The translations under genes were made by a program, and so were the position numbers. Below are positions 29,149 through 40,524 of a stretch of 44,203 bases of DNA, in pieces; the stretch's first letter is position 1, and each line of letters starts with the position of its first letter. Source of the DNA: Terriglobia bacterium (lineage in GTDB: Bacteria; Acidobacteriota; Terriglobia; Bryobacterales; Bryobacteraceae); the NCBI GenBank assembly GCA_021324185.1, contig JAJPJN010000115.1:1-44203 (forward strand), written 5' to 3'. The notes below the pieces were generated by a model, which worked only from the letters and a program-made list of their open reading frames with translations, ran no database searches and was not told the DNA's origin.

Positions 29149-30363
29149 TTGGTAAATAGACACTTGTCCAACCCGACACTGGATTTCATTTATTTCGAGG
29201 CCGGCGGCGGCCATAAGAGCGCCGCATTGGCGCTCGAAGCCGTCATCGCAGCCGAAGGTTATGACTGGAACATCCGGCTGGTCAATCTGCAGGAAGTGCT
29301 GGACCCGCTCGATATCTTCCGCAAGCTGACGCGCGTGCGGCTGCAAGATATCTACAACCGTATGCTGGCGAAGGGCTGGACGCTCGGTTCGGCGTATCTG
29401 CTGCCCATCATGCAGGCGGTCATCCGCATTTATCACCGCCCTGCAGTCAAGCTACTGACGGACTTCTGGAAACAACGCCGGCCGGACATAGTGGTCTCGC
29501 TCGTGCCGAACCTAAATCGCGCCTTATTCGAGAGCCTGCAAAAAGCTCTGCCCGGCACTCCATTCGTAACCATCCTCACCGATTTGGCCGACTATCCTCC
29601 GCATTTCTGGATCGAAGCGCATGCCAGTAGTTCGGAAGCTCATAGGCAGTACTTCATCTGCGGAACTGAAAAAGCTAAACAACAGGCGCTCTCTCTCGGA
29701 CATCCCGGCGAGCGTGTCTTTCAAACCAGCGGCATGATTCTGCGGCCTGCGTTTTATGAATCGCGCAATTTGGCCAGAGCCGAAGAACGCATACATCTCG
29801 GTCTTCATCCCGAGTTGCCAACCGGGATTGTACTGTTCGGTGGCGAAGGGTCGAAGGTCATGTTACAAATTGCCAGGCAGCTTGGAAACTCAGCCCGGGA
29901 TTTGCAACTCATTATGATCTGTGGCCGCAACACGCGCTTAAAGGAACGCCTGCAGGCGCTCCAGACGCGCAATCGAATTTTCGTCGAGGGGTTTACCAAA
30001 GAGATTCCCTACTACATGTCTCTGTCCGATTTTTTTATCGGCAAGCCCGGTCCGGGAAGTATTTCGGAAGCGCTCAGCCTGGGGCTGCCGGTGATTGTGG
30101 AATCGAATGCCTGGACGCTGCCGCAGGAGCGTTTCAATGCCGAGTGGATTCGCGATCACGGATTCGGCGTCGTCCTGCGCAGCTTCCGCCGGATCTCACA
30201 GGCCGTCGACGAGTTACTAAGTGGCGGCAGGATGGAGGAGATGCGGGCGCGCATCAGACAGCTAAACAATAGAGCGGTTTATGAAATCCCGCCGATTCTG
30301 GAGCAAATCCTGGCTCGCTGCAAAGCGCATTCTCAGAACCCGGTCTCTCTTGGGATGATGTAG
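29149..30363 (+). CDS. GT28-type glycosyltransferase (MGDG synthase/MurG-like)
   Basis: This 404-residue protein has no ATG near its N-terminus. The start is TTG 29149 or TTG 29164, bounded by an in-frame TGA at 29128-29130, and neither has a clear ribosome site. The N-terminal domain opens with FEAGGGHKSAALALEAVI (about 15-32), the lipid-facing glycine motif of diacylglycerol glucosyl/galactosyltransferases. The C-terminal domain carries the sugar-nucleotide motif KPGPGSISEALSLGLPVIVE (about 298-317). This pattern belongs to the monogalactosyldiacylglycerol synthase-like branch of GT28. It probably transfers a sugar to a membrane lipid on the cytoplasmic side. It heads a plus-strand run with asnB only 5 nt downstream. 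Confidence 0.87.
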   Translation: MVNRHLSNPTLDFIYFEAGGGHKSAALALEAVIAAEGYDWNIRLVNLQEVLDPLDIFRKLTRVRLQDIYNRMLAKGWTLGSAYLLPIMQAVIRIYHRPAVKLLTDFWKQRRPDIVVSLVPNLNRALFESLQKALPGTPFVTILTDLADYPPHFWIEAHASSSEAHRQYFICGTEKAKQQALSLGHPGERVFQTSGMILRPAFYESRNLARAEERIHLGLHPELPTGIVLFGGEGSKVMLQIARQLGNSARDLQLIMICGRNTRLKERLQALQTRNRIFVEGFTKEIPYYMSLSDFFIGKPGPGSISEALSLGLPVIVESNAWTLPQERFNAEWIRDHGFGVVLRSFRRISQAVDELLSGGRMEEMRARIRQLNNRAVYEIPPILEQILARCKAHSQNPVSLGMM

Positions 30364-30368
30364 AGAGC

Positions 30369-32288
30369 ATGTGCGGCATTGCAGGATTCACACATTTCGG
30401 ACGCCCACCCGCGCCCGGAGTGTTGCGCCGCGCGCTCGATGGGCTGAGGCATCGCGGTCCCAACCAGCAGGGCGTATTTGAAGCCCTGGATATCTCCATG
30501 GGAGCCGTGCGGCTCAAAATTATCGATCTCGCCGGTGGCGATCAACCCATCGAGACAGAAGACGGAGAATACGTCGTCGTCTTCAATGGCGAAATCTATA
30601 ATCACGCCGAATTACGCGGCGAACTCGAAGCTTTGGGGCATCGCTTCGCTTCCCACTGCGACACCGAAGTCGCTCTGCGGGCCTTCGCGCAGTGGGATAC
30701 GAATTGTTTCCGCCGCTTTCGCGGCATGTTCGCCGTCGCGTATTGGCAGCGCTCCAGCCAGCGCCTCGTGCTCGGCCGCGACCGGCTCGGAATCAAGCCG
30801 CTCTATTACGCGCTTCTTGCCGGCAATCTCCATTTCGGATCGGAGCTGAAGGCGTTTTTCGAGCACCCCGCGATCCCCCGGAAAATTTCGCAAACTGGTC
30901 TCGGCTATTTTCTTTCGCTGAATTACGTCCCCACGCCTCACACGCTGGTAGATGCAATCGAAAAAGTGCAACCGGGCACATGGCTCGAATTTCAGCGTGG
31001 CCGCATTCGTAAAGAAAGCTATTGGCAGAACAGGTTTAACCCCGAGGCGGTCAGCATCGAGGACGCCTGCCGGCAACTCGATGAGCTGCTGAAAAAATCG
31101 ATCAGCGAGCATCTGATCTCCGACGTTCCGCTCGGCATCTGGGCAAGCGGCGGTCTCGATTCCTCGACGATTCTGCATTACGCATCGCAGGTGTCCAGCC
31201 GCAAGCTGAAGACTTTTTCCATCTCCTTCACAGGGCGGCGATTCGACGAAAGCGAATACTTCCGGCTGCTCGCCGCCCGCTATAAAACGTCGCATCAGGA
31301 ACTCGATCTGAGCGCCGGTCTGGATCTGCCGGCCGCCATCGAAGAGATCGCATACTATTCCGACGAGCCGAGCGCGGATGCGGGAGCGCTTCCCGTCTGG
31401 TTTCTGTCGCGCATGTCCGCCGCACACGTGACGGTTGCGTTGAGCGGTGAAGGCGCGGATGAGATCTTCGGCGGATATCAAACCTATGTGGCCGATAAAT
31501 ACGCAAACTTCGCGCGGCGGCTTCCGAAAGCGATCCTTCGCGCGGCCGCAAAAGCAGCAAATCGCATTCCCGCTTCGGATGAAAAGATCGGTCTCGATTA
31601 CAAGGTAAAGCGCTTTCTGGCCGGCGCTCTATTGCCGGCCGATGAGGCGCATTTCTACTGGAACGGAACTTTCTCGAGCCGCGAAGTACATGATCTCGGC
31701 CCGGCAATTACGCCCCAACCGGTGGCCGGGCTCGCCGAACGCCTCCCCGGCATTCCACCGGCAGACGACCTGATCAACCGCTATCTCTTCGTCGATCAGC
31801 ATTATTACTTACCGGACGACATTCTGTATAAGTGTGACCGCATGAGCATGGCGCATTCGCTCGAAGTCCGGCCGCCGTTTTTGGATCACCGAATCGTCGA
31901 ATTTGCCGGGACTCTCCCTGCCGGTCTGAAGATTCGCGGCCGCACCACCAAATACATTCTTCGCAAGCTGGTGCAGAATCAATTGCCGCAAGCGATTCTG
32001 CGCCGCCCGAAGGAAGGACTGGATATTCCGGCGCACGAGTGGCTGCGCGGCCCGCTGCGCCCGCTGCTCGAAAAAAACCTCAGCCCCGATTCCGTGCGGC
32101 GGGCCGGATTGCTTTCTCCCGCCGCCATCGGTAATCTTCTTCAACGCCATTTCAGCAGGAAAGAGAATCTTGGCTATCACCTGTGGGGCCTGCTCACGTT
32201 GCATCTCTGGATGCAGCGTTGGAAAATTGAGCCTGCCGTTACACTCGAATCAGCGCATCACCCCGCTCTCGCGAATGCAGGAGACTAG
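30369..32288 (+). CDS. asnB: Asparagine synthase (glutamine-hydrolysing)
   Basis: This 639-residue enzyme has both expected domains. The N-terminal class II glutamine amidotransferase begins with the nucleophile Cys2 (MCGIAGF) and has RHRGPNQQG, VFNGEIYNH and a GRDRLGIKPLYY linker. The C-terminal synthetase has the pyrophosphate loop SGGLDSST (260-267), SGEGADEIFGGYQ, DDILYKCDRMSMAHSLEVRPPFLD and RPKEGLDIP. It uses glutamine and ATP to amidate a carboxylate, normally aspartate. Several asnB paralogues near glycosyltransferases amidate polysaccharide or lipid precursors instead, so the GT28 neighbour 5 nt upstream leaves the true substrate open. It ends directly at the ATG of the M28 peptidase with no gap. 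Confidence 0.93.
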   Translation: MCGIAGFTHFGRPPAPGVLRRALDGLRHRGPNQQGVFEALDISMGAVRLKIIDLAGGDQPIETEDGEYVVVFNGEIYNHAELRGELEALGHRFASHCDTEVALRAFAQWDTNCFRRFRGMFAVAYWQRSSQRLVLGRDRLGIKPLYYALLAGNLHFGSELKAFFEHPAIPRKISQTGLGYFLSLNYVPTPHTLVDAIEKVQPGTWLEFQRGRIRKESYWQNRFNPEAVSIEDACRQLDELLKKSISEHLISDVPLGIWASGGLDSSTILHYASQVSSRKLKTFSISFTGRRFDESEYFRLLAARYKTSHQELDLSAGLDLPAAIEEIAYYSDEPSADAGALPVWFLSRMSAAHVTVALSGEGADEIFGGYQTYVADKYANFARRLPKAILRAAAKAANRIPASDEKIGLDYKVKRFLAGALLPADEAHFYWNGTFSSREVHDLGPAITPQPVAGLAERLPGIPPADDLINRYLFVDQHYYLPDDILYKCDRMSMAHSLEVRPPFLDHRIVEFAGTLPAGLKIRGRTTKYILRKLVQNQLPQAILRRPKEGLDIPAHEWLRGPLRPLLEKNLSPDSVRRAGLLSPAAIGNLLQRHFSRKENLGYHLWGLLTLHLWMQRWKIEPAVTLESAHHPALANAGD

Positions 32289-33881
32289 ATGAGTAAATTA
32301 CTTGCAACGTTCGCATTAGTCGCATTATCCGCTGCCGTTGCCGCCACCGATTGGGAATCAGCCGGCAAAGCCTGGTGGAAGCATGTCGAGTATCTGGCAA
32401 GCGACGAGCTCGAAGGCCGCAACGTCGGCTCACCCGGATTTGAAAAAGCTGCCGCCTACGTTGCCGGTCAATTCGAACACGCCGGCTTGAAACCGGCAGG
32501 GACGCAGGGTTACTTCCAGCCGGTCGCCTTCACGGAGGTTTCCCTCAACGCGGAGAAATCTTCGCTGGCGCTCGTGCGCAACGGCCAGAGCACTCCCGTT
32601 CCCGTGCCGCAGGAAGCGCAGCTTGGCTATTCGGCGGAATCGGCGCCCGAAATCGAAGCGCCCGTCGTATTTGCCGGCTATGGCCTCGTCATTCCTGAAG
32701 CTCACTACGATGACTTGCAAGGCCTGAATGTCAAAGGCTCCATCGTCGCCTTTCTGACCGGCGGCCCGAAGAGCATCGACGGCAACTTAAGATCGCATTA
32801 CTCATCCGGCGAAGAGCGCTGGAAGGCATTGCGCGCCGCCGGAGCCGTGGGGACCATTTCAATTCCCAATCCGGGCAGCATGGAAATTCCCTGGAACAGG
32901 CAGGAACTGAGCTGGGGAAGGCCGCGCGTCAGTCTCGCGGATCAATCCTTATCCGGAAATCGCGGCCAGAAATTCAGCGCCTCCTGGAATCCAGCGAAAG
33001 CAGATGACCTGTTGTCCGGTTCCGGCCACATCTTCCAGGAAATTCTCGCTGCCGCCAACAACGACCGCCCGCTGCCTCATTTTCCCTTGCCGGTTTCCAT
33101 TCAGGCACACATAACCATCTCCCAAAAACCGATCGAATCCAAAAATGTGGCGGGCCTACGTCCCGGCGATGATCCGCAACTCAAAAACGAATACGTCGTC
33201 ATCTCGGCGCACCTCGATCACATCGGCGTCGGTAAGCCCGTCAATGGAGACAGCATTTATAACGGCGCCATGGACGACGCTTCGGGCGTGGCATCGCTCA
33301 TCGAGATCGCTCGCAACTTACAGTCTGAGCGTGTCCACACCGAACGTTCCCTTCTGTTCCTCGCCGTCACTGCGGAAGAAAAAGGCGAACTCGGGTCCAT
33401 CTATTTCGCCCATCACCCCACCGTCTCAGGGCGCATCATCGCCGATCTGAACATGGATATGTTCCTGCCGCTCTTTCCGCTGAAGTGGTTGGAAGTGCAA
33501 GGCTTGAATGAATCGACTCTGGGCGACGACGTGCGAGCCGTAGCCGAAGCCGCGGGCGTCAAAGTACAAGCGGATAAGGAGCCGAACCGCAATCGCTTCA
33601 TCCGCAGCGATCAATACAGCTTCGTGAAACGCGGCATACCGGCGGTTGCTTTCAAGTTCGGCTACATCCCCGGCGGCCCGGAAGAAAAAGTTTTCAACGA
33701 CTGGTACACCAACCGCTATCACGGTTTGAAAGATGACGTGAATCAGCCGGTCGATCTCGCTGCGGCGGCGCAGTTCAATGCGATTCTCCAGAATCTGGCA
33801 GTTCGCGTCGCCGATGCGGATCAGCCCCCCATTTGGAAACCGAACAGCTTTTTCCGGCGCTTCGCCTCTTCCAGCGAATAG
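32289..33881 (+). CDS. M28-family zinc metallopeptidase, exported
   Basis: This 530-residue protein has a signal peptide (about 1-18, LATFALVALSAAVA). A protease-associated (PA) domain is inserted at about 130-230 (VVFAGYGLVIPEAHYDDLQGLNVKG). The catalytic M28 core supplies the two-zinc ligand set: His in VISAHLDHIG, Asp in MDDASGVAS, Glu-Glu in TAEEKGELGS, Asp in DLNMDMF, and the last His in NRYHGLKDD. All five ligands are therefore present, so it is expected to be an active periplasmic or secreted aminopeptidase-like enzyme. The ATG immediately follows the asnB stop, and prmA starts 3 nt after this gene, so translation of the three is probably coupled. Confidence 0.93.
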   Translation: MSKLLATFALVALSAAVAATDWESAGKAWWKHVEYLASDELEGRNVGSPGFEKAAAYVAGQFEHAGLKPAGTQGYFQPVAFTEVSLNAEKSSLALVRNGQSTPVPVPQEAQLGYSAESAPEIEAPVVFAGYGLVIPEAHYDDLQGLNVKGSIVAFLTGGPKSIDGNLRSHYSSGEERWKALRAAGAVGTISIPNPGSMEIPWNRQELSWGRPRVSLADQSLSGNRGQKFSASWNPAKADDLLSGSGHIFQEILAAANNDRPLPHFPLPVSIQAHITISQKPIESKNVAGLRPGDDPQLKNEYVVISAHLDHIGVGKPVNGDSIYNGAMDDASGVASLIEIARNLQSERVHTERSLLFLAVTAEEKGELGSIYFAHHPTVSGRIIADLNMDMFLPLFPLKWLEVQGLNESTLGDDVRAVAEAAGVKVQADKEPNRNRFIRSDQYSFVKRGIPAVAFKFGYIPGGPEEKVFNDWYTNRYHGLKDDVNQPVDLAAAAQFNAILQNLAVRVADADQPPIWKPNSFFRRFASSSE

Positions 33882-33884
33882 CCG

Positions 33885-34688
33885 GTGTCGATGTACTCTC
33901 TTTGGCTCACCTGCAAGCCTGAAGAGGTCGAGATTCTTTCTGTAGAACTCTGGGAACTGGGCAGCAGCGGTATCCGGGAAATCGAGACCGATCTCGGCAT
34001 CACTCTCGCGGCCACATTCGAAACCTCCAGCGCGCGTCCGGAAATCGCGGCGCGCTTTGCAGCGTATGCGCCGCAATGGATTTGCGAGGAGCCGGTCGAT
34101 TGGGTGGCGGTCAGCCGCGCTGCCTGGCCCGGACGCGAAATCGGCAGCCGCTTCCTGGTTGTGCCGCCCTGGCGCGCCGCAGCGGAAACATCGGGCCGCC
34201 TTCGTTTGGTTCACAATCCGGCATTGGCCTGCGGCACGGCGGAGCATCCCTGCACGCAGTTGGCGCTCACGGCGCTCGAAAAATTTGTGCATCCGGGAAC
34301 TGTCGCCTGCGATATCGGGACTGGATCGGGAATCCTGGCAATCGCGGCACGGAAATTGGGCGCGGCGCGTGCACTGGCAGTCGACATCGATTGCGCCGCT
34401 TTGAACAGCGCTCGCGAGAACTTCGAGTTGAATGGATTATCTGCTGAGCTGATCTGCGGCTCGGCCGGTGCGCTTGCCGCTGCCTGCTCGGATATCACCA
34501 TCGCAAACATCAGCGCCACCGTATTGCTTGCGATCTGGGAGGACTTGCTGCGGATCACCCGCCGCCCCGGATGGCTCATCCTGACAGGCTTCCCGAAATC
34601 CGAAGCGAAGATGCTTCAGGATCTGGCGCCGCAGCCGGAAATTTTCGAGTTGGAGGGTTGGATCTGTTTAGCCGCGGCCCTTGCATGA
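33885..34688 (+). CDS. prmA: Ribosomal protein L11 methyltransferase
   Basis: This protein has 267 residues from GTG 33885; ATG 33891 is an equally possible start two codons on. The N-terminal substrate-recognition domain (about 1-60, LWLTCKPEEVEILSVELWELG) is joined to a SAM-binding methyltransferase domain with CGTAEHPCTQLALTAL, CDIGTGSGILAIAARKLGA and the catalytic-loop equivalent ANISATVL. PrmA trimethylates lysines and the N-terminus of ribosomal protein L11. The motif CGTAEHPCT departs somewhat from the usual GTGxHxTT form. It is the last gene of the GT28-asnB-M28-prmA run, and a hairpin lies 15 nt after its stop. Confidence 0.88.
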   Translation: MSMYSLWLTCKPEEVEILSVELWELGSSGIREIETDLGITLAATFETSSARPEIAARFAAYAPQWICEEPVDWVAVSRAAWPGREIGSRFLVVPPWRAAAETSGRLRLVHNPALACGTAEHPCTQLALTALEKFVHPGTVACDIGTGSGILAIAARKLGAARALAVDIDCAALNSARENFELNGLSAELICGSAGALAAACSDITIANISATVLLAIWEDLLRITRRPGWLILTGFPKSEAKMLQDLAPQPEIFELEGWICLAAALA

Positions 34689-34702
34689 CCACAAAATAAA
34701 AA

Positions 34703-34725
34703 CGCCCTCGGGAAACCCGAGGGCG
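34703..34725 (-). terminator. Intrinsic terminator after the lysine-rich micro-gene
   Basis: CGCCCTCGGG (34703-34712) and CCCGAGGGCG (34716-34725) form a perfect 10-bp GC-rich stem with a 3-nt AAA loop. On the minus strand the stem is followed by TTTTTATTTTG, the classic U-tract, so it ends transcripts of the micro-gene at 34757-34837. On the plus strand no U-tract follows, though the hairpin may still protect the prmA messenger 3' end. Confidence 0.85.
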
Positions 34726-34756
34726 GAGTGATGATCCCGCTAGCGCGGGAAGCTAC

Positions 34757-34837
34757 TTACTTCCCTTTCTTTTTGCTGGCGGTTTTCTTGCTGGCAGTCT
34801 TTTTGGAGCTGCCCGCCTTCTTGGTTGCGTTCTTCAT
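34757..34837 (-). CDS. Lysine-rich 26-residue peptide (histone-tail-like)
   Basis: This micro-gene encodes 26 residues, 11 of them lysine and the rest mainly Ala, Ser, Thr and Gly. It begins MKNATKKAGSS and carries KKTAS twice (12-16 and 17-21) before ending KKKGK. It starts with ATG at 34837 and has a GGGAG ribosome site 9 nt upstream. It is framed by a near-consensus promoter (34894-34922) and a perfect terminator (34703-34725), strong evidence that it is a real, well-expressed gene despite its size. The composition matches the basic tails of H1-like and AlgP/HC1-like nucleoid proteins, so nucleic-acid binding is the natural guess. No folded domain exists and the function is unknown. Confidence 0.78.
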   Translation of the reverse strand: MKNATKKAGSSKKTASKKTASKKKGK

Positions 34838-34893
34838 CGATTGATTCTCCCTAACGTAAATTTGCAATCTTATACAGATCGCAGTGTGATTCA

Positions 34894-34922
34894 TATATAA
34901 GGTTGTTCTCAACGGAAGTCAA
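34894..34922 (-). promoter_or_regulatory. Near-consensus sigma70 promoter of the lysine-rich micro-gene
   Basis: On the minus strand, TTGACT (34917-34922) and TATATA (34894-34899) are separated by exactly 17 nt. An A/T tract directly upstream of the -35 could act as an UP element. Transcription would start near 34887, giving a leader of about 50 nt. It is the best promoter match I found in the window. Confidence 0.75.
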
Positions 34923-35098
34923 GAAAAAAATTTAGTTCGGGGGTGATGAGAGGGTATGGAGGGCGGGAATCGGCTCCAAAAACGTATCTTCGGAATTTGT
35001 TTTACCCAAAAATTCCCCGCAAACGTCTTTCGAGTCGTCGAAAAGCGGTTCAAGATGGAAGAAGTACGTTGACGCCGGCAAGGGAGCGAGAGAAACGG

Positions 35099-35848
35099 AT
35101 GGAGAGGGCGGCAATCGCAACTGCTGTTGCGGCTTCTTTGTTCCTTTTCGCCTCCTGCGCGAAAAAAAATAAAACTGCGCGCGTGCCGAATGCGCCGCGC
35201 CCGCTAACCGCTGCGTCGCAACCTCCCGCAAAACCTGCGCCGCTGCCCGTCGGATACACCGAAGAGGGAATCGCAAGCTGGTATGGAATTCCGTATCATG
35301 GCCGGCCTGCAGCCGATGGCGAAATCTACGACATGGAAAAACTCGTGGCGGCGCACCGGCTAATGCCTTTTAACACTTGGCTTAAGGTGACGAACCTGAC
35401 GAATAACAAAAGCGTGACGGTCCGCGTTATCGACCGTGGGCCATTCGTCGATGGCCGCATCATCGATCTGTCCAAGGCGGCAGCGCGGCAGATCGACCTG
35501 TTGGGCCCGGGAGTTGCTCGCGTGCGGTTGGAAGTGATTGCCGCTCCTCCCGATATCAGTTCCAACGATTTCTACGCGGTGCAGGTGGGCGCGTTTTCTA
35601 TCTACGCCAATGCCGAGCGGCTGCGAGCGGAATATGCGCAACGCTTCGGCGCGGCGCAACTCGCTTTGAAAGAAGGGGCTATGCCTCTCTGGCGCGTTCT
35701 TGTAGGCAAAGCGGGTTCCATTGAAGCGGCTCAGCAGATCGCAAATGAGATTCGCGCCGAAGGCAAAGAGGTATTCGTTGTGCGGCTGGACACCACGTTG
35801 CCGCCCCCACCTCCGCCACAAACTTCCGGAAGTCGCTCGGAACCCTGA
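35099..35848 (+). CDS. rlpA: RlpA-like septal-ring lipoprotein with SPOR domain
   Basis: The protein has 249 residues from ATG 35099. The frame is open to 34943, but the added 52 residues are basic and would bury the signal peptide. The N-terminus (MERAAIATAVAASLFLFASC) is a lipoprotein signal with Cys20 as lipidation site. A double-psi beta-barrel follows (about 55-145, GIASWYGIPYHGRPAADGE, VTVRVIDRGPFVDGRIIDLSKAAA), with the catalytic-type Asp in the RVIDRGPF segment. A C-terminal SPOR domain (about 158-235, FYAVQVGAFSIYANAERL) binds denuded glycan at the division site. RlpA proteins bind or cleave peptidoglycan strands lacking stem peptides. It is followed on the same strand by an AAA+ activator and a glycosyltransferase. 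Confidence 0.92.
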   Translation: MERAAIATAVAASLFLFASCAKKNKTARVPNAPRPLTAASQPPAKPAPLPVGYTEEGIASWYGIPYHGRPAADGEIYDMEKLVAAHRLMPFNTWLKVTNLTNNKSVTVRVIDRGPFVDGRIIDLSKAAARQIDLLGPGVARVRLEVIAAPPDISSNDFYAVQVGAFSIYANAERLRAEYAQRFGAAQLALKEGAMPLWRVLVGKAGSIEAAQQIANEIRAEGKEVFVVRLDTTLPPPPPPQTSGSRSEP

Positions 35849-35934
35849 GCGATCCACGCGGCGCGAGAGTTTTCGATTTTTTATCGCACTACGTACTTGG
35901 GCCACAAAAATCCTTTTCTGGCCGGGTATATCTC

Positions 35935-36921
35935 TTGACACCGCAGGTCGCACTCGACGTATCGCCGCTTTCCACCCTCATCGGCAATTCGCCGGCCATG
36001 CGCCAGGTACACCGCCTGGTGATGCGAATCGGCCGCTCGCAATTCCCCGTTCTGATTTTGGGAGAAACCGGCACGGGAAAGGAAGTCGTCGCGCGCGCCA
36101 TCCACAACATGGAAGCGCGCGGGCCCTTTGTCGTCGTGGATTGCTCTTCTCTGGTCGGGCCTCTGATGGAAAGCGAGCTGTTCGGGTATGCAAAAGGCGC
36201 ATTCACCGGCGCGCATACCCAAAAACTGGGCCTGCTCGATGCCGCCAACGGCGGAACGGCTTTCTTCGACGAAATCGGCGAACTGCCCCTCGAGATGCAG
36301 ATGAAATTATTGCGCGTGCTGCAGCAGAAGGAATTTCGCGCGGTGGGCTCGGTCGCGCAGCGCACGTCGAATTTTCGAGTCATCGCCGCCACCAACCGCA
36401 ATCTGGCCGAGGAGGTGAAAGCCAACCGCTTCCGGCAGGACCTGTATTACCGGCTCAATGTAATCCGGCTCCGCCTGGCCCCGCTCCGCGAACGCGCCGA
36501 GGATATCCCCGCACTCGTCACCTACTTCCTCGAGCGATATGGAAACGGGCATAAGGCGACAACGGAACTATTGAGCATCCTGCAGCAATACGATTGGCCG
36601 GGCAATGTTCGCGAACTGGAACACACCGTTCAAAGAATGATCGCGATGAACTCGGGCCCATGGTTGACGCCGGCAGATCTGCCCAACACCGTGATGGTCG
36701 ATCAGCAAAAATTCCTTGCTGCCACCGGACAGAGTTCCTCGCATCCGGTTTCTCTACCCAGCGCGGATTCCTCCAATGGCGTAATGCCCCTCGCAGAGCT
36801 AGAAAAGCGGGCCATCCTGAGCGCGCTCGAGTACACCAAAGGCGACCGCACCGTCGCAGCCGCCATGCTCGGGATCGGCCGCACCACCTTGTACCGCAAG
36901 CTGAAGGAATACGGCCTCTAA
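35935..36921 (+). CDS. Sigma54-dependent transcriptional activator without receiver domain
   Basis: This 328-residue protein starts with TTG 35935; the next in-frame ATG (35998) would remove conserved AAA+ sequence. The AAA+ domain begins almost at the N-terminus: Walker A GETGTGKE (43-50), the sigma54-contact loop GAFTGA (88-93), Walker B AFFDEIGE (109-116) and sensor/arginine-finger region FRQDLYYRLNVIRL. A Fis-type helix-turn-helix closes the protein (about 285-328, KGDRTVAAAMLGIGRTTLYRKLKEYGL). No receiver, GAF or PAS domain precedes the ATPase, so regulation must be by level, partner protein or nucleotide, as for PspF. It lies 86 nt after rlpA, which may be part of its operon or a target. 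Confidence 0.92.
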   Translation: MTPQVALDVSPLSTLIGNSPAMRQVHRLVMRIGRSQFPVLILGETGTGKEVVARAIHNMEARGPFVVVDCSSLVGPLMESELFGYAKGAFTGAHTQKLGLLDAANGGTAFFDEIGELPLEMQMKLLRVLQQKEFRAVGSVAQRTSNFRVIAATNRNLAEEVKANRFRQDLYYRLNVIRLRLAPLRERAEDIPALVTYFLERYGNGHKATTELLSILQQYDWPGNVRELEHTVQRMIAMNSGPWLTPADLPNTVMVDQQKFLAATGQSSSHPVSLPSADSSNGVMPLAELEKRAILSALEYTKGDRTVAAAMLGIGRTTLYRKLKEYGL

Positions 36922-36937
36922 CCTTTAACATTGGAGG

Positions 36938-37972
36938 GTGCGCGTTGCCCTTGATGCCACCTACAGCATAGATCCGCGTCCTTCCGGCATCGCCGTTTAT
37001 TCGCGTGAACTATTGCGTGGATTAGCGGCTGCGCATCCCGAGGACGAGTTCCTGCATTGCTACCGCCTGAAACAATTTCTGCGCGCGCGCGGCGAGCGGC
37101 AACAGCCTAATGTCCACCGGCGGTTGCTCATCCCGCCCGTCCCCACCTTCCGCGCCCGCATCTTCCATGCGCTGAATCAACGCGTGGATCGGAGGCCGGC
37201 GAAAAACGTGATCTCCACGTTTCACGATCTTTTCGTCCTCACGGGTGAATATTCGACGCCGGCCTTTCGAGAGCGCTTTTCGAAGCAAGCGCGTCAAGCT
37301 GCCCAAAATTCCGATCTGATCATCGCAGTCTCCGAATTCACCGCCTCTCAGCTAACCGCCCTTTTGGGCGTGCCCCGAAAACGAATTCGCGTTGTACCGC
37401 ACGGCGTGCACCCACCGCGCGAACAAACCACGGCAGCTCGCGAAAACCGAATTCTCTTCGTCGGCACGCTGCAGATCCGCAAAAATATTTTGCGCCTCGT
37501 AGAAGCCTTTGAGTTCCTGCCGCCGGAATGGACGCTCACCTTAGCTGGTGCCGCGAGTGGCTTCGGAATCCGCCGCATCCTCGAGCGCATTCACGCCAGC
37601 CCGGCCGCCCCGCGCATTCAAATCACCGGATACCTGAGCGCGCAGGAACTCGACGCTCTATTCCAGAAATCCAGTATCTTTGCGTTTCCATCCCTCGATG
37701 AAGGATTCGGAATGCCTGTACTCCAAGCGATGGCGCACGGGGTTCCCGTCGTCACATCCAACCGCTCCGCGCTTCCCGAGGTCGCCGGAGATGCGGCCCT
37801 GCTGGTAAATCCTTTTAAAACCGAAGAGATCGCCTCGGCACTCCTGCAACTGGCAACCGACGCCGATTTGCGAATGAAACTGGCCGCAGCAGGCAAAATC
37901 AGGGCTCGCGATTTTACTTGGGAAAAAGCTGTCGAGCGCACTTACGCGGCTTACAAGGAACTAACTGGTTAA
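36938..37972 (+). CDS. GT4-family glycosyltransferase
   Basis: This 344-residue two-domain GT-B enzyme uses GTG 36938; an in-frame TAA at 36926-36928 excludes earlier starts, and the GGAGG before it is unusually close. The N-terminus (ALDATYSIDPRPSGIAVYSRELL) is the acceptor-binding start typical of this family. The C-terminal half has GTLQIRKN, a donor-phosphate region, and DEGFGMPVLQAMAHGVPVVTSN at about 248-270, where the usual second Glu of the E-x7-E motif is Gln. It probably adds a sugar from a nucleotide donor during polysaccharide or LPS synthesis; donor and acceptor are not evident. It is 16 nt after the AAA+ activator and converges on the small gene at 37984. Confidence 0.88.
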   Translation: MRVALDATYSIDPRPSGIAVYSRELLRGLAAAHPEDEFLHCYRLKQFLRARGERQQPNVHRRLLIPPVPTFRARIFHALNQRVDRRPAKNVISTFHDLFVLTGEYSTPAFRERFSKQARQAAQNSDLIIAVSEFTASQLTALLGVPRKRIRVVPHGVHPPREQTTAARENRILFVGTLQIRKNILRLVEAFEFLPPEWTLTLAGAASGFGIRRILERIHASPAAPRIQITGYLSAQELDALFQKSSIFAFPSLDEGFGMPVLQAMAHGVPVVTSNRSALPEVAGDAALLVNPFKTEEIASALLQLATDADLRMKLAAAGKIRARDFTWEKAVERTYAAYKELTG

Positions 37973-37983
37973 AGCAGAATCCG

Positions 37984-38286
37984 TTAGTGCTGCTCTTCTT
38001 CGTTAACCGAAATTTTCAGCGCGCGCAGAAATTTCTGGTCCTGTGTCGTGAGGCGAATTTTGCCGTTCGGTTCACGGAGCGGTTCTGAATCGATCTCGAC
38101 AGGCTCCTCATCGTCAGCATCCTCGTCGCGCTTGTTGAACCCGATGGTCGCTTCCAACACTAGAAAAACATCGTAGCCCGCGCGTTTGATCTCACCAATC
38201 GCGCCGGCGATTCGGTCGGAATCGGACAGGGATTCATTGATCGCGTTCCCGAGTTCCTGCATCAACTCTTTGAGCTTATCGTCCAA
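37984..38286 (-). CDS. Small acidic protein of unknown function
   Basis: This is a 100-residue, soluble, acidic protein. It has an N-terminal amphipathic helix (MDDKLKELMQELGNAINESLSDSD), a predicted strand (GYDVFLVLEATIGF), a strongly acidic linker (RDEDADDEEPVEIDSEP) and a C-terminal segment resembling a regulatory arm (KIRLTTQDQKFLRALKI). I do not recognise a family. Codon use is like its neighbours. It is the last minus-strand gene of the efflux block, 83 nt after the DinB-like gene, and its stop lies 11 nt from the convergent glycosyltransferase. Confidence 0.75.
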   Translation of the reverse strand: MDDKLKELMQELGNAINESLSDSDRIAGAIGEIKRAGYDVFLVLEATIGFNKRDEDADDEEPVEIDSEPLREPNGKIRLTTQDQKFLRALKISVNEEEQH

Positions 38287-38369
38287 AATCTCCCCTTTCC
38301 GGGCACTTTCAGGTTATCACCAGTTTCGGGTCTAAAGCGATTTGAACCCGCACACAATCACTGGCCCAT

Positions 38370-38846
38370 TTAAGGCCGGTAGCTCTTTTTGACGAACATC
38401 AACTGCCCCAGGTGATACGAGTTGTGACAGATCAGCAGCAGCGCCTCGCGAAAGAGGGTCTGGCCATCCCCGTGCTCGAACGGCGCGAGTAACTTGTTCT
38501 GCAAATCCTGCACCAGCTTGTTGAACTCCCGAGCGTCGCGCTGGAAGTTTTTGACGCTGTCTTCCCAGGCTCCCGCGTTCGGCGGCGCCTCTGTTTTCGG
38601 CCAGTAGCCCTCCGGCCATTCCGGCGACTTGTGTTTCGCGTTGCGCGAGAACTCCAGAATGTCCCATTGCGCAATGCGCATATGTTCCAAAAGCTGCCAA
38701 GCCGTGTGCGGCGAGCCAGGCGGTTTCCAGCCGTATGCTTCGGCGTGGAAGTCCTCTATTACAGAATCGAAATCGATGTGAGCCTGATGTCCGCGCAAGG
38801 CATCCACCAGCATCAGGCGCATTTTGACGGATTCGTCGGTATTCAT
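38370..38846 (-). CDS. DinB/YfiT-like metal-binding four-helix protein
   Basis: This 158-residue protein has the DinB-like four-helix pattern. A putative metal triad is formed by His in HTAWQLLEHMRIAQWD (about 50-65) and the HxxxH of CHNSYHLGQL (about 140-149). Members bind divalent metal and include thiol transferases; most are uncharacterised. The ATG follows the outer-membrane-factor stop by a single nucleotide (TAA-T-ATG), so it is almost certainly translated from the efflux transcript. A detoxification role alongside drug efflux is plausible but is only inferred from position. Confidence 0.87.
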   Translation of the reverse strand: MNTDESVKMRLMLVDALRGHQAHIDFDSVIEDFHAEAYGWKPPGSPHTAWQLLEHMRIAQWDILEFSRNAKHKSPEWPEGYWPKTEAPPNAGAWEDSVKNFQRDAREFNKLVQDLQNKLLAPFEHGDGQTLFREALLLICHNSYHLGQLMFVKKSYRP

Positions 38847-38847
38847 A

Positions 38848-40524
38848 TTAATGAGATGTTGCAGGTGGCTTGCTCTGCTGCGGCGGAAGTGCGATAGGCG
38901 GCACGTTGGGCGGGTTTTCCGGCGCCACCTGGCCGGATGGAATGGGTATGCCCCCAGGCGACCAAGGGCCGGGCTTCGCGGTCAAAGTTTTCACCTGCGG
39001 TAATTGAGTCGCGTCCCATCCTCCGCCTAATGCCATAATCAGCCCCACGCTCGCATTCATCTGTTTCAGTTGTGTCTGCAATTGTGTCAGGCGATTACTG
39101 AGAACGGCGTTTTGCGCGGTGATCACATTCAGGTAGCTATCGAGCCCCGCTCGAAAACGCGTCAGTGAAAGATCTAAATAGTGAGTCGATGAGCCGATCG
39201 CCGTTTCATACTGCGCCACCTCCTGCGCGTAAATGCGGAGCGCCGCCAGTTCATCCTCCACCGCTTGGAAATCTGTAAGAACCAGTTGCCGGTAGTTCGC
39301 CACTGCGGCGTCATAATTGGCCTCTGTCTGTTCCACCGCGCCACGCCGCGCGCCAAAATCGAGAAGAGTTTGCGAAAGCGCCGGCCCCAATGACCAGAAC
39401 CGGCTCGGCCATGTGAACCATTCGGTGAAATGAGAAGTCTGCAGCCCGCCCGTTGCGCTCAAAGTCAGATTGGGGTAGTAAGCGGCGCGTGCTACTCCGA
39501 TCAGCGCATTAGCCGCCGCCACTTGCCGTTCTGCCGCCGCAATATCGGGGCGCCGCTCAAGCAGTTCGCTGGGTATCGCAACCGGCACTTGCGGCGGATT
39601 GGGAGCGAATTTTGCAACTGCCAGCGAAAATTCGGCCGCCGGCCTTCCGATGAGCGTTGCAATGGCGTGCTCATATTGAGCGCGCGCCACACCCACTTCC
39701 GTCGCTTGCGCTGTTACCGTATCGACTTGTGTGCGCGCCAGCGCGACATCCGCATCGGAATCGATGCCGGCATTGAATAAGGTGAGCGTCAGATTCAGCG
39801 TGTCGCGATAGTTCCTCAGCGTGTCCTGCAGAATGCCTTCCTGCTCATCGAGCGCGCGTACTTCGAAGTAATCTTCTGCCAGCGCCGCGTGCGTACTCAA
39901 TAGCGCTGTCGCGACATCGGCCGCGCTCGCCTGAGCTGTGAAAGCGTTCGCCGCTACCTGATTCCGAATTTTGTGCCAGAAATCAACCGTATACGTGATC
40001 TCGAACGGCAGAGAAAAATTGTTGATGATGCTCGATGTGCCGCTGCCGCCGCCACCCCCGCCGCCGGTACCGGATCCAACCGTGCTTCCGGTCACAACCA
40101 CCGATCGGGTCGTGGCAGAAGGCCGCAGGTTTGTGTAAGAAGGTGAAGCGCCGATAGTCGGAAACAGCGCAGATCTCGCCTCCACGACCAATGCCCGGGC
40201 TGCGCGAAAATTCGCCTCCGCTTGAATCACAGTCTGGTTTGAAATCTGTACCTGTTCCTCCAGCGAATTTAGGACCGGATCGTTATACATCTCCCACCAC
40301 TTGGCGCGAATTTTGTCATCGCCCGGGTCTGCAACTTTCCATCCGGTGCCCTCCTTGAACGCTTGCGGTGATGATTCCTTGAACGCCGTGGGAGCGGCCA
40401 CAGGAGGCTTCGCGTAATGCGGTGCGGGATTGCAGGACGAAAGAAGAATAACAACTGTCGCCGCTGCTATCCAGGCCGCCGGCGCCAGTGCCTGCACCAG
40501 CAATCTAATGTTTTTCAACTTCAT
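38848..40524 (-). CDS. Outer-membrane factor of RND efflux system (NodT/TolC-type lipoprotein)
   Basis: This 558-residue protein has a lipoprotein signal ending in LLSSC. The TolC-like fold has two repeated helical hairpins (EQVQISNQTVIQAEANFRAARALV at about 93-116 and ALARTQVDTVTAQATEVGVARAQYEHAIATLIG at about 261-293, with FRAGLDSYLNVITAQNAVLSNR near 470). NodT-type factors trimerise to a channel through the outer membrane and periplasm for drugs expelled by RND pumps. An unusual run of seven glycines lies in a barrel-region loop near residue 155 and appears to be low-complexity expansion. The C-terminus is Pro-rich. The start overlaps the STAS gene by 20 nt. Confidence 0.93.
   Translation of the reverse strand: MKLKNIRLLVQALAPAAWIAAATVVILLSSCNPAPHYAKPPVAAPTAFKESSPQAFKEGTGWKVADPGDDKIRAKWWEMYNDPVLNSLEEQVQISNQTVIQAEANFRAARALVVEARSALFPTIGASPSYTNLRPSATTRSVVVTGSTVGSGTGGGGGGGSGTSSIINNFSLPFEITYTVDFWHKIRNQVAANAFTAQASAADVATALLSTHAALAEDYFEVRALDEQEGILQDTLRNYRDTLNLTLTLFNAGIDSDADVALARTQVDTVTAQATEVGVARAQYEHAIATLIGRPAAEFSLAVAKFAPNPPQVPVAIPSELLERRPDIAAAERQVAAANALIGVARAAYYPNLTLSATGGLQTSHFTEWFTWPSRFWSLGPALSQTLLDFGARRGAVEQTEANYDAAVANYRQLVLTDFQAVEDELAALRIYAQEVAQYETAIGSSTHYLDLSLTRFRAGLDSYLNVITAQNAVLSNRLTQLQTQLKQMNASVGLIMALGGGWDATQLPQVKTLTAKPGPWSPGGIPIPSGQVAPENPPNVPPIALPPQQSKPPATSH

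Follow-up and report, generated by a model that had tools for sequence, protein, structure and literature searches.

The window examined here, the 44,203-nucleotide contig JAJPJN010000115.1 of a Terriglobia bacterium of the family Bryobacteraceae (assembly GCA_021324185.1), carries on its minus strand a micro-gene of 26 codons and a TAA stop (34757..34837; ATG at 34837, stop at 34759-34757), whose product, MKNATKKAGSSKKTASKKTASKKKGK, contains 11 lysines in 26 residues and a tandem duplicate of KKTAS, as the initial annotation had reported. The same annotation took the frame for a real gene of a size that is easily missed, and the conservation of the frame strongly supports this: the locus very probably encodes a protein, both in the window and in most relatives. 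Comparison of the sequences further shows that the protein is under selection and that the signals of the unit and the frame are conserved across the class, a large group of soil bacteria. With moderate confidence, we read the unit as a monocistronic micro-gene for a disordered, lysine- and alanine-rich polycation that resembles the tail of histone H1 and probably binds a polyanion. The product is mostly 10 to about 29 residues long and reaches 120 residues in some lineages.

Conservation of the lysine-rich reading frame

A lysine-rich frame (at least 25% lysine) is kept in 139 of the 142 distinct complete loci first read. This denominator derives from 169 loci with a start codon, which, after removal of duplicates and of four loci truncated at the edge of a contig (L048, L052, L083, and L093), left 140 distinct regions; 139 of these reach the lysine threshold (the exception is L175), and the start-less loci L173 and L174 were added as losses. 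The 139 frames encode 103 distinct proteins with a median length of 22 residues and a range of 11 to 120. Over all loci examined, the lysine-rich frame is present in 155 of 163, lost in seven, and one locus is unrelated.

The substitution pattern is that of a coding sequence. The ratio of nonsynonymous to synonymous differences (pN/pS) is 0.11 in the frame, compared with 2.3 and 21 in the shifted frames, over 366 same-length pairs that are non-independent and include codons used for searching, and the differences at codon positions 1, 2, and 3 number 813, 306, and 2608. The leader lengths are spread over all three classes modulo 3 (52/42/41), with the coding frame preserved throughout, as expected if the frame constraint starts at the ATG. 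The search itself accounts for part of the conservation of the first codons, because the DNA pattern used to find relatives had to match 11 bases at the start of the frame, and the covariance models R1 and R2 span seven and four codons, respectively; the lysine-rich frame beyond the first codons is free of this ascertainment.

Within the window, the frame also stands out by composition. Taken from the earliest start available to it (TTG, 51 amino acids), it contains 21.6% lysine, the highest value among the 504 open reading frames (ORFs) of 15-60 amino acids, the next reaching 15.8%; taken from its first ATG (45 amino acids), which lies upstream of where the transcript probably begins, it contains 24.4%, compared with 15.8% (281 ORFs). 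The start at 34837 was chosen because of the ribosome site GGGAG and the conservation, and this conserved 26-codon form contains 42% lysine.

Distribution in the class and beyond

The initial annotation had proposed a search of relatives for conserved length, promoter, and terminator; the unit as a whole proved to be conserved in relatives. A DNA search with 266 bases around the unit matched 36 of 60 related genomes (E ≤ 0.01), among which G038, G040, and G048 gave short matches (E 0.004-0.005) that are probably something other than the unit; conservation in the better matches is highest between the -35 box and codon 8. A protein search with the 26 residues alone matched only 3 of the 60, which shows how a conserved gene can be overlooked when its length and complexity fall below what standard searches need. 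The first 30 loci read all have the -35 box, the ribosome site, and the lysine-rich frame, including L028, an 87-amino-acid repeat form. Searching a named collection with the DNA pattern yielded 71 loci, all from Acidobacteria and 39 of them from Bryobacterales or Bryobacteraceae; 67 have a complete lysine-rich frame, and the remaining four run off the contig.

Covariance models extended this range. R1, which covers the unit from the promoter to codon 7, matched 122 of 150 genomes of the order, in a single copy each, and 80 of 299 genomes of the class; across the phylum, it matched 7 of 297, every one a member of the class. R2, built on eight loci of family f11, matched 59 of the 299 genomes of the class, and R3, built on 17 divergent loci, matched 160, which together with G297, found by R2 only, gives 161 of 299, a count of units that includes frame-less loci and whose weakest matches were inspected in part. 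Alignment A5 of divergent families was poor, and no model was built from it. All 30 f11 loci read, which were taken from R2 matches and include the eight genomes behind that model, carry frames of 12-24 amino acids starting MATKK, MATAKK, MAVKK, or MAAKK. Among 20 further loci, mostly from weak matches, 16 have a frame (10-26 amino acids), three have lost it, and one is unrelated. A protein profile search of 19 genomes gave two matches, both in known carriers; the blanks in the other 17 mean little because these genomes had been picked as missed by R1 or as having lost the frame.

Over the phylum, R3 matched 41 of 396 genomes, 39 of them within the class. The two matches outside the class are a unit with a 14-amino-acid frame, MATKKKAAKKKKKC, in G483 (L275), and a locus in G733 (L276) that encodes an unrelated protein of 180 amino acids and was ruled out as a family member. 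Given L275, the family could be more ancient or more widespread than documented here.

Promoter, leader hairpin, ribosome site, and terminator

In the window, all signals lie on the minus strand. The sequence reads a -35 hexamer TTGACT (34922-34917), a 17-nt spacer, a -10 hexamer TATATA (34899-34894), an 8-bp leader hairpin with the stem TGCGATCT / AGATTGCA (34883-34863) directly 3' of the likely transcription start, a Shine-Dalgarno-like GGGAG (34851-34847) 9 nt upstream of the ATG, and, beyond the stop codon, an intrinsic terminator (34725-34703) with a perfect 10-bp stem and a 3-nt loop, CGCCCTCGGG-TTT-CCCGAGGGCG, followed by the U-tract TTTTTATTTT. The frame, the promoter boxes with their spacer, the ribosome site, and the terminator hairpin thus lie where the initial annotation had placed them. 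Its description of the promoter as the best match in the window did not hold, as the promoter matches the consensus at 9 of 12 positions and is tied among 33 site and spacing combinations that reach this score. A stricter promoter scan of 30000-40000 did not list the micro-gene promoter, because it required a T at the last -10 position.

These signals recur in the relatives. The TTGAC of the -35 box is invariant in 30 of 30 aligned loci, and the spacer between TTGAC and TATA is 17 nt in 127 and 18 nt in eight of the 135 loci (of 139) in which both boxes were found. A Shine-Dalgarno-like motif (GGGAG, AGGAG, GGAGG, or GGAGA) lies at most 22 nt from the start in all 139 loci. A terminator-like hairpin follows the stop codon in 132 of 139 loci, compared with 1 of 137 downstream control stretches and 5 of 139 shuffles, and one half of the f11 terminator stem, GGGGACGC, is present in 23 of the 30 f11 loci.

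The leader hairpin, which had been passed over earlier, is the best-supported RNA structure of the unit. Compensatory changes on both sides occur at all eight pairs of the stem (87 distinct sequences; 91 sources, namely 71 named loci, 19 further loci of the order, and the window, with frame-less loci and those from outside the order left out). Standard pairing is found in 94.7% of the stem cells compared with 82.2% in shuffles, pairs changed on both sides number eight compared with 4.4, and none of 500 shuffles scored as high on any of five measures; the alignment was fitted to the model and so leans towards structure, and the shuffles ignore relatedness. An unfitted alignment of the first 30 loci predicts the same stem, with changes on both sides at five of the eight pairs.

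Composition and length of the peptides

The 127 forms of at most 30 amino acids consist of 49.8% lysine, 28.4% alanine, 5.9% threonine, and 4.8% proline. Nearly all of their hydrophobic content is alanine, and the 139 proteins contain one acidic residue (a glutamate) in total; net charge ranges from +7 to +32. ATKK lies inside the first nine residues in 122 of the 139. The long forms consist mostly of AAAPAKK-type repeats, and repeat number varies, from 10 to 120 amino acids overall, while composition is kept. The likeness to a histone H1 tail, suggested earlier for the window peptide, is therefore borne out and sharpened by the relatives, which share with bacterial histone-H1-like proteins a low-complexity sequence rich in lysine, alanine, and proline and nearly free of acidic residues, together with a variable number of repeats.

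No family in Pfam-A or NCBIfam reached its curated cut-off with the window peptide, nor did any with the other forms searched, six in Pfam and five in NCBIfam, and the only hits, DUF963 and SspM, scored far below; no Rfam family reached its gathering score in the whole window or in 10 relative loci.

Forms of 50-120 amino acids with lysine, alanine, and proline repeats were seen at L028/L068, L035, L037, L075, L093, L094, L181, L182, L190, and L192, where R1 still finds the leader. These lineages are a natural series of tail lengths. At the other end of the series, L261-L266 have frames of 10-12 codons (for example, MAAKKKAKKKR and MKKAKKKKKR), with the same kind of promoter, ribosome site, and terminator.

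Loci without the frame

Loci that keep promoter and terminator without the frame had been named in the initial annotation as a refutation of the peptide gene in favour of a small RNA, and both situations are found: of 163 loci, seven, from two genera that belong to different families, keep the promoter and GGGAG after loss of the frame, whereas 155 loci keep the frame. The frame-less loci are L173, L174, and L175 in genus g39, and L271, L272, L273, and L311 in genus g111 of family f11. Other g39 members have the frame (L177, L191, and L199) or no R1 match. Terminator hairpins are readable downstream in the frame-less loci, and the g111 loci keep the hairpin despite divergence among themselves, which is greatest for L311. 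The simplest reading of these loci is that the peptide has been lost and the remainder is decaying more slowly; in g111, where the loci have diverged and yet keep the hairpin, the idea that the RNA has a function persisting beyond the loss of the peptide deserves to be taken seriously.

Proposed role and competing explanations

In the reading favoured here, the fixed promoter, the 5' hairpin, the ribosome site, and the unit's own terminator would together yield an abundant short mRNA and an abundant peptide, the hairpin probably stabilizing the 5' end of the mRNA. The peptide would act by its charge on a polyanion, with DNA or structured RNA as the likeliest targets and polyphosphate as a possible one, as a histone H1 tail supplied in trans and unfused to any folded domain, and the ATKK near the N-terminus of most members may serve in processing or contact. 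Because length and repeat number are tolerated while composition is kept, charge and disorder seem to matter, rather than a fold or a fixed docking site. Composition makes polyanion binding likely; the choice of DNA over RNA or polyphosphate as the target is tentative.

Several observations weigh against this picture. The structured leader exceeds the needs of a plain housekeeping mRNA, and the specially open ribosome site that would be expected is absent in the predictions over 126 transcripts, where the mean unpaired probability is 0.55 at the ribosome site, 0.49 at the ATG, and 0.56 in the frame. High expression is something that we infer from the signals alone. The frame-less loci also count here: the frame is gone with the promoter and GGGAG left in place, the leader hairpin still folds in six of the seven (it is unclear in L175), and all four g111 loci read are frame-less, with none seen that has the frame. 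The micro-gene is dispensable, moreover, because family f3 of the same order is without a match (0 of 8 with R3). Exchange of the micro-gene with a lysine-tailed HU was considered and not seen, in carriers or in non-carriers, among the 24 C-termini that could be read. The HU comparison comprised 77 matches in 24 genomes, of which 30 loci were fetched (four, L307-L310, had no usable C-terminus, and L304 and L306 were in the wrong frame), and none of the 24 readable C-termini is lysine-rich.

An alternative is a dual-function or regulatory RNA that acts through the leader hairpin and the 3' region, with the peptide as a second or secondary product. The covariation at all eight pairs would fit such an RNA, as would the recurrent f11 terminator stem half, the signals retained in g39 and g111 after loss of the frame, and the hairpin kept by the diverged g111 loci. 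The constraint on the reading frame, with a pN/pS of 0.11 and a lysine-rich frame in nearly all loci, speaks against it, as does the lack of an Rfam match at the gathering score in 11 sources. The frame-less g39 loci moreover score only 50.6-55.2 bits with R1, compared with at least 70.2 for other matches in the order, although R1 covers seven codons, so that these low scores may reflect the lost frame as well as decay of the RNA. On balance, we consider this explanation somewhat unlikely. A class-wide form of it, in which a highly expressed transcript both encodes a polycation of 10-26 residues and functions itself as an RNA by way of the conserved leader hairpin, the RNA outliving the peptide where the frame has decayed, also seems unlikely; the peptide would then rank among the shortest purpose-made polycations and, as a product of translation, would take the place of polyamines or protamine in adjusting the state of the nucleoid or of RNA. 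Rather improbable is a ribosome-associated mini-protein, bound by charge to rRNA like the very small basic ribosomal proteins. Size, charge, single copy, and housekeeping-type signals would suit it, and the five matches of a long form in PDB (E ≤ 1) comprise four ribosomal proteins of eukaryotes plus a formin, all weak and probably explained by composition; lengths of 10 to 120 residues and a free repeat number misfit a fixed rRNA site, however, and the gene has been lost in several lineages.

Two further explanations carry very little weight. The lysine codon runs, the hairpin 3' of the stop, and the terminator recall a leader peptide or attenuator that would tie a downstream gene to the supply of lysine or the speed of the ribosome, yet the next gene in the window is convergent, none is co-directional, and neighbours change between families; this objection is limited by a co-directional downstream ORF in some relatives (for example, L036 and L176), and we regard the attenuator as highly improbable all the same. 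A secreted antimicrobial peptide, which would also be short and cationic, is equally hard to credit: a signal peptide is absent because hydrophobic residues beyond alanine are nearly nil, and no constant neighbour fit for export or immunity accompanies the gene.

Relation to known lysine-rich proteins

In Pseudomonas, AlgP (AlgR3) has a histone-H1-like KPAA domain, its peptides bind DNA, and the protein associates with polyphosphate granules (PMC9239181). Its disordered repeats rich in lysine, alanine, and proline resemble the AAAPAKK-type long forms of Acidobacteriota. Unlike in AlgP, the polycation makes up the entire product of the micro-gene, which is mostly 20-25 amino acids long. Stable DNA binding by mycobacterial HupB requires its C-terminal PAKK/KAAK domain (PMC5676037). 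The micro-gene products have basic motifs of this type; however, the HupB tail is fused to HU, whereas the Acidobacteriota tail is a separate gene in a group where no readable HU C-terminus is lysine-rich. Small basic DNA-binding proteins of Coxiella are enriched in the form with a condensed nucleoid (PMC4766238). They resemble the micro-gene product by description, in small size and basicity. ScvA is about 30 amino acids long. Chlamydial Hc2 (hctB), with 165-237 amino acids, has lysine-rich repeats of variable number (PMC2848022). It shares this variability with the micro-gene and is far longer. Pfam holds a family for Hc2; the micro-gene forms searched matched no Pfam family above its cut-off.

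In the literature searched, with subscription papers mostly outside its reach, no report on the gene in Acidobacteria or on its peptide strings was found, and MKNATKK, MATKKAAKK, and MATKKKAKK occur in no paper. In the cited papers, the H1-like lysine-rich tails of bacteria are extensions or repeat domains of larger proteins; here the tail stands alone, down to 10-12 residues, under selection across a class and equipped with a promoter, a leader, and a terminator of its own. This offers a natural reduced experiment on the role of a bare polycation in a bacterial cell and is small enough for synthesis and testing.

Genomic neighbourhood

The unit stands alone in an intergenic gap of the window, between a convergent PrmA-like gene (33885-34688) and a divergent RlpA-like gene with DPBB_1 and SPOR domains. 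Within the limited flanks of the 139 loci, no constant partner gene was seen. RlpA lies divergently upstream in 103 of the 139 (duplicates included) and, within flanks of limited length, in none of 16 loci from outside the order. The neighbours in other families differ again, as judged by eye. A small hairpin 3' of the stop codon on the minus strand (CCCGC-GCTA-GCGGG, 34736..34749) was noted by eye, mainly in the closest relatives. Among the 139 loci, the PrmA-like gene lies beside the unit only at the window locus, and several relatives have in its position a different convergent gene that looks methyltransferase-like by eye.
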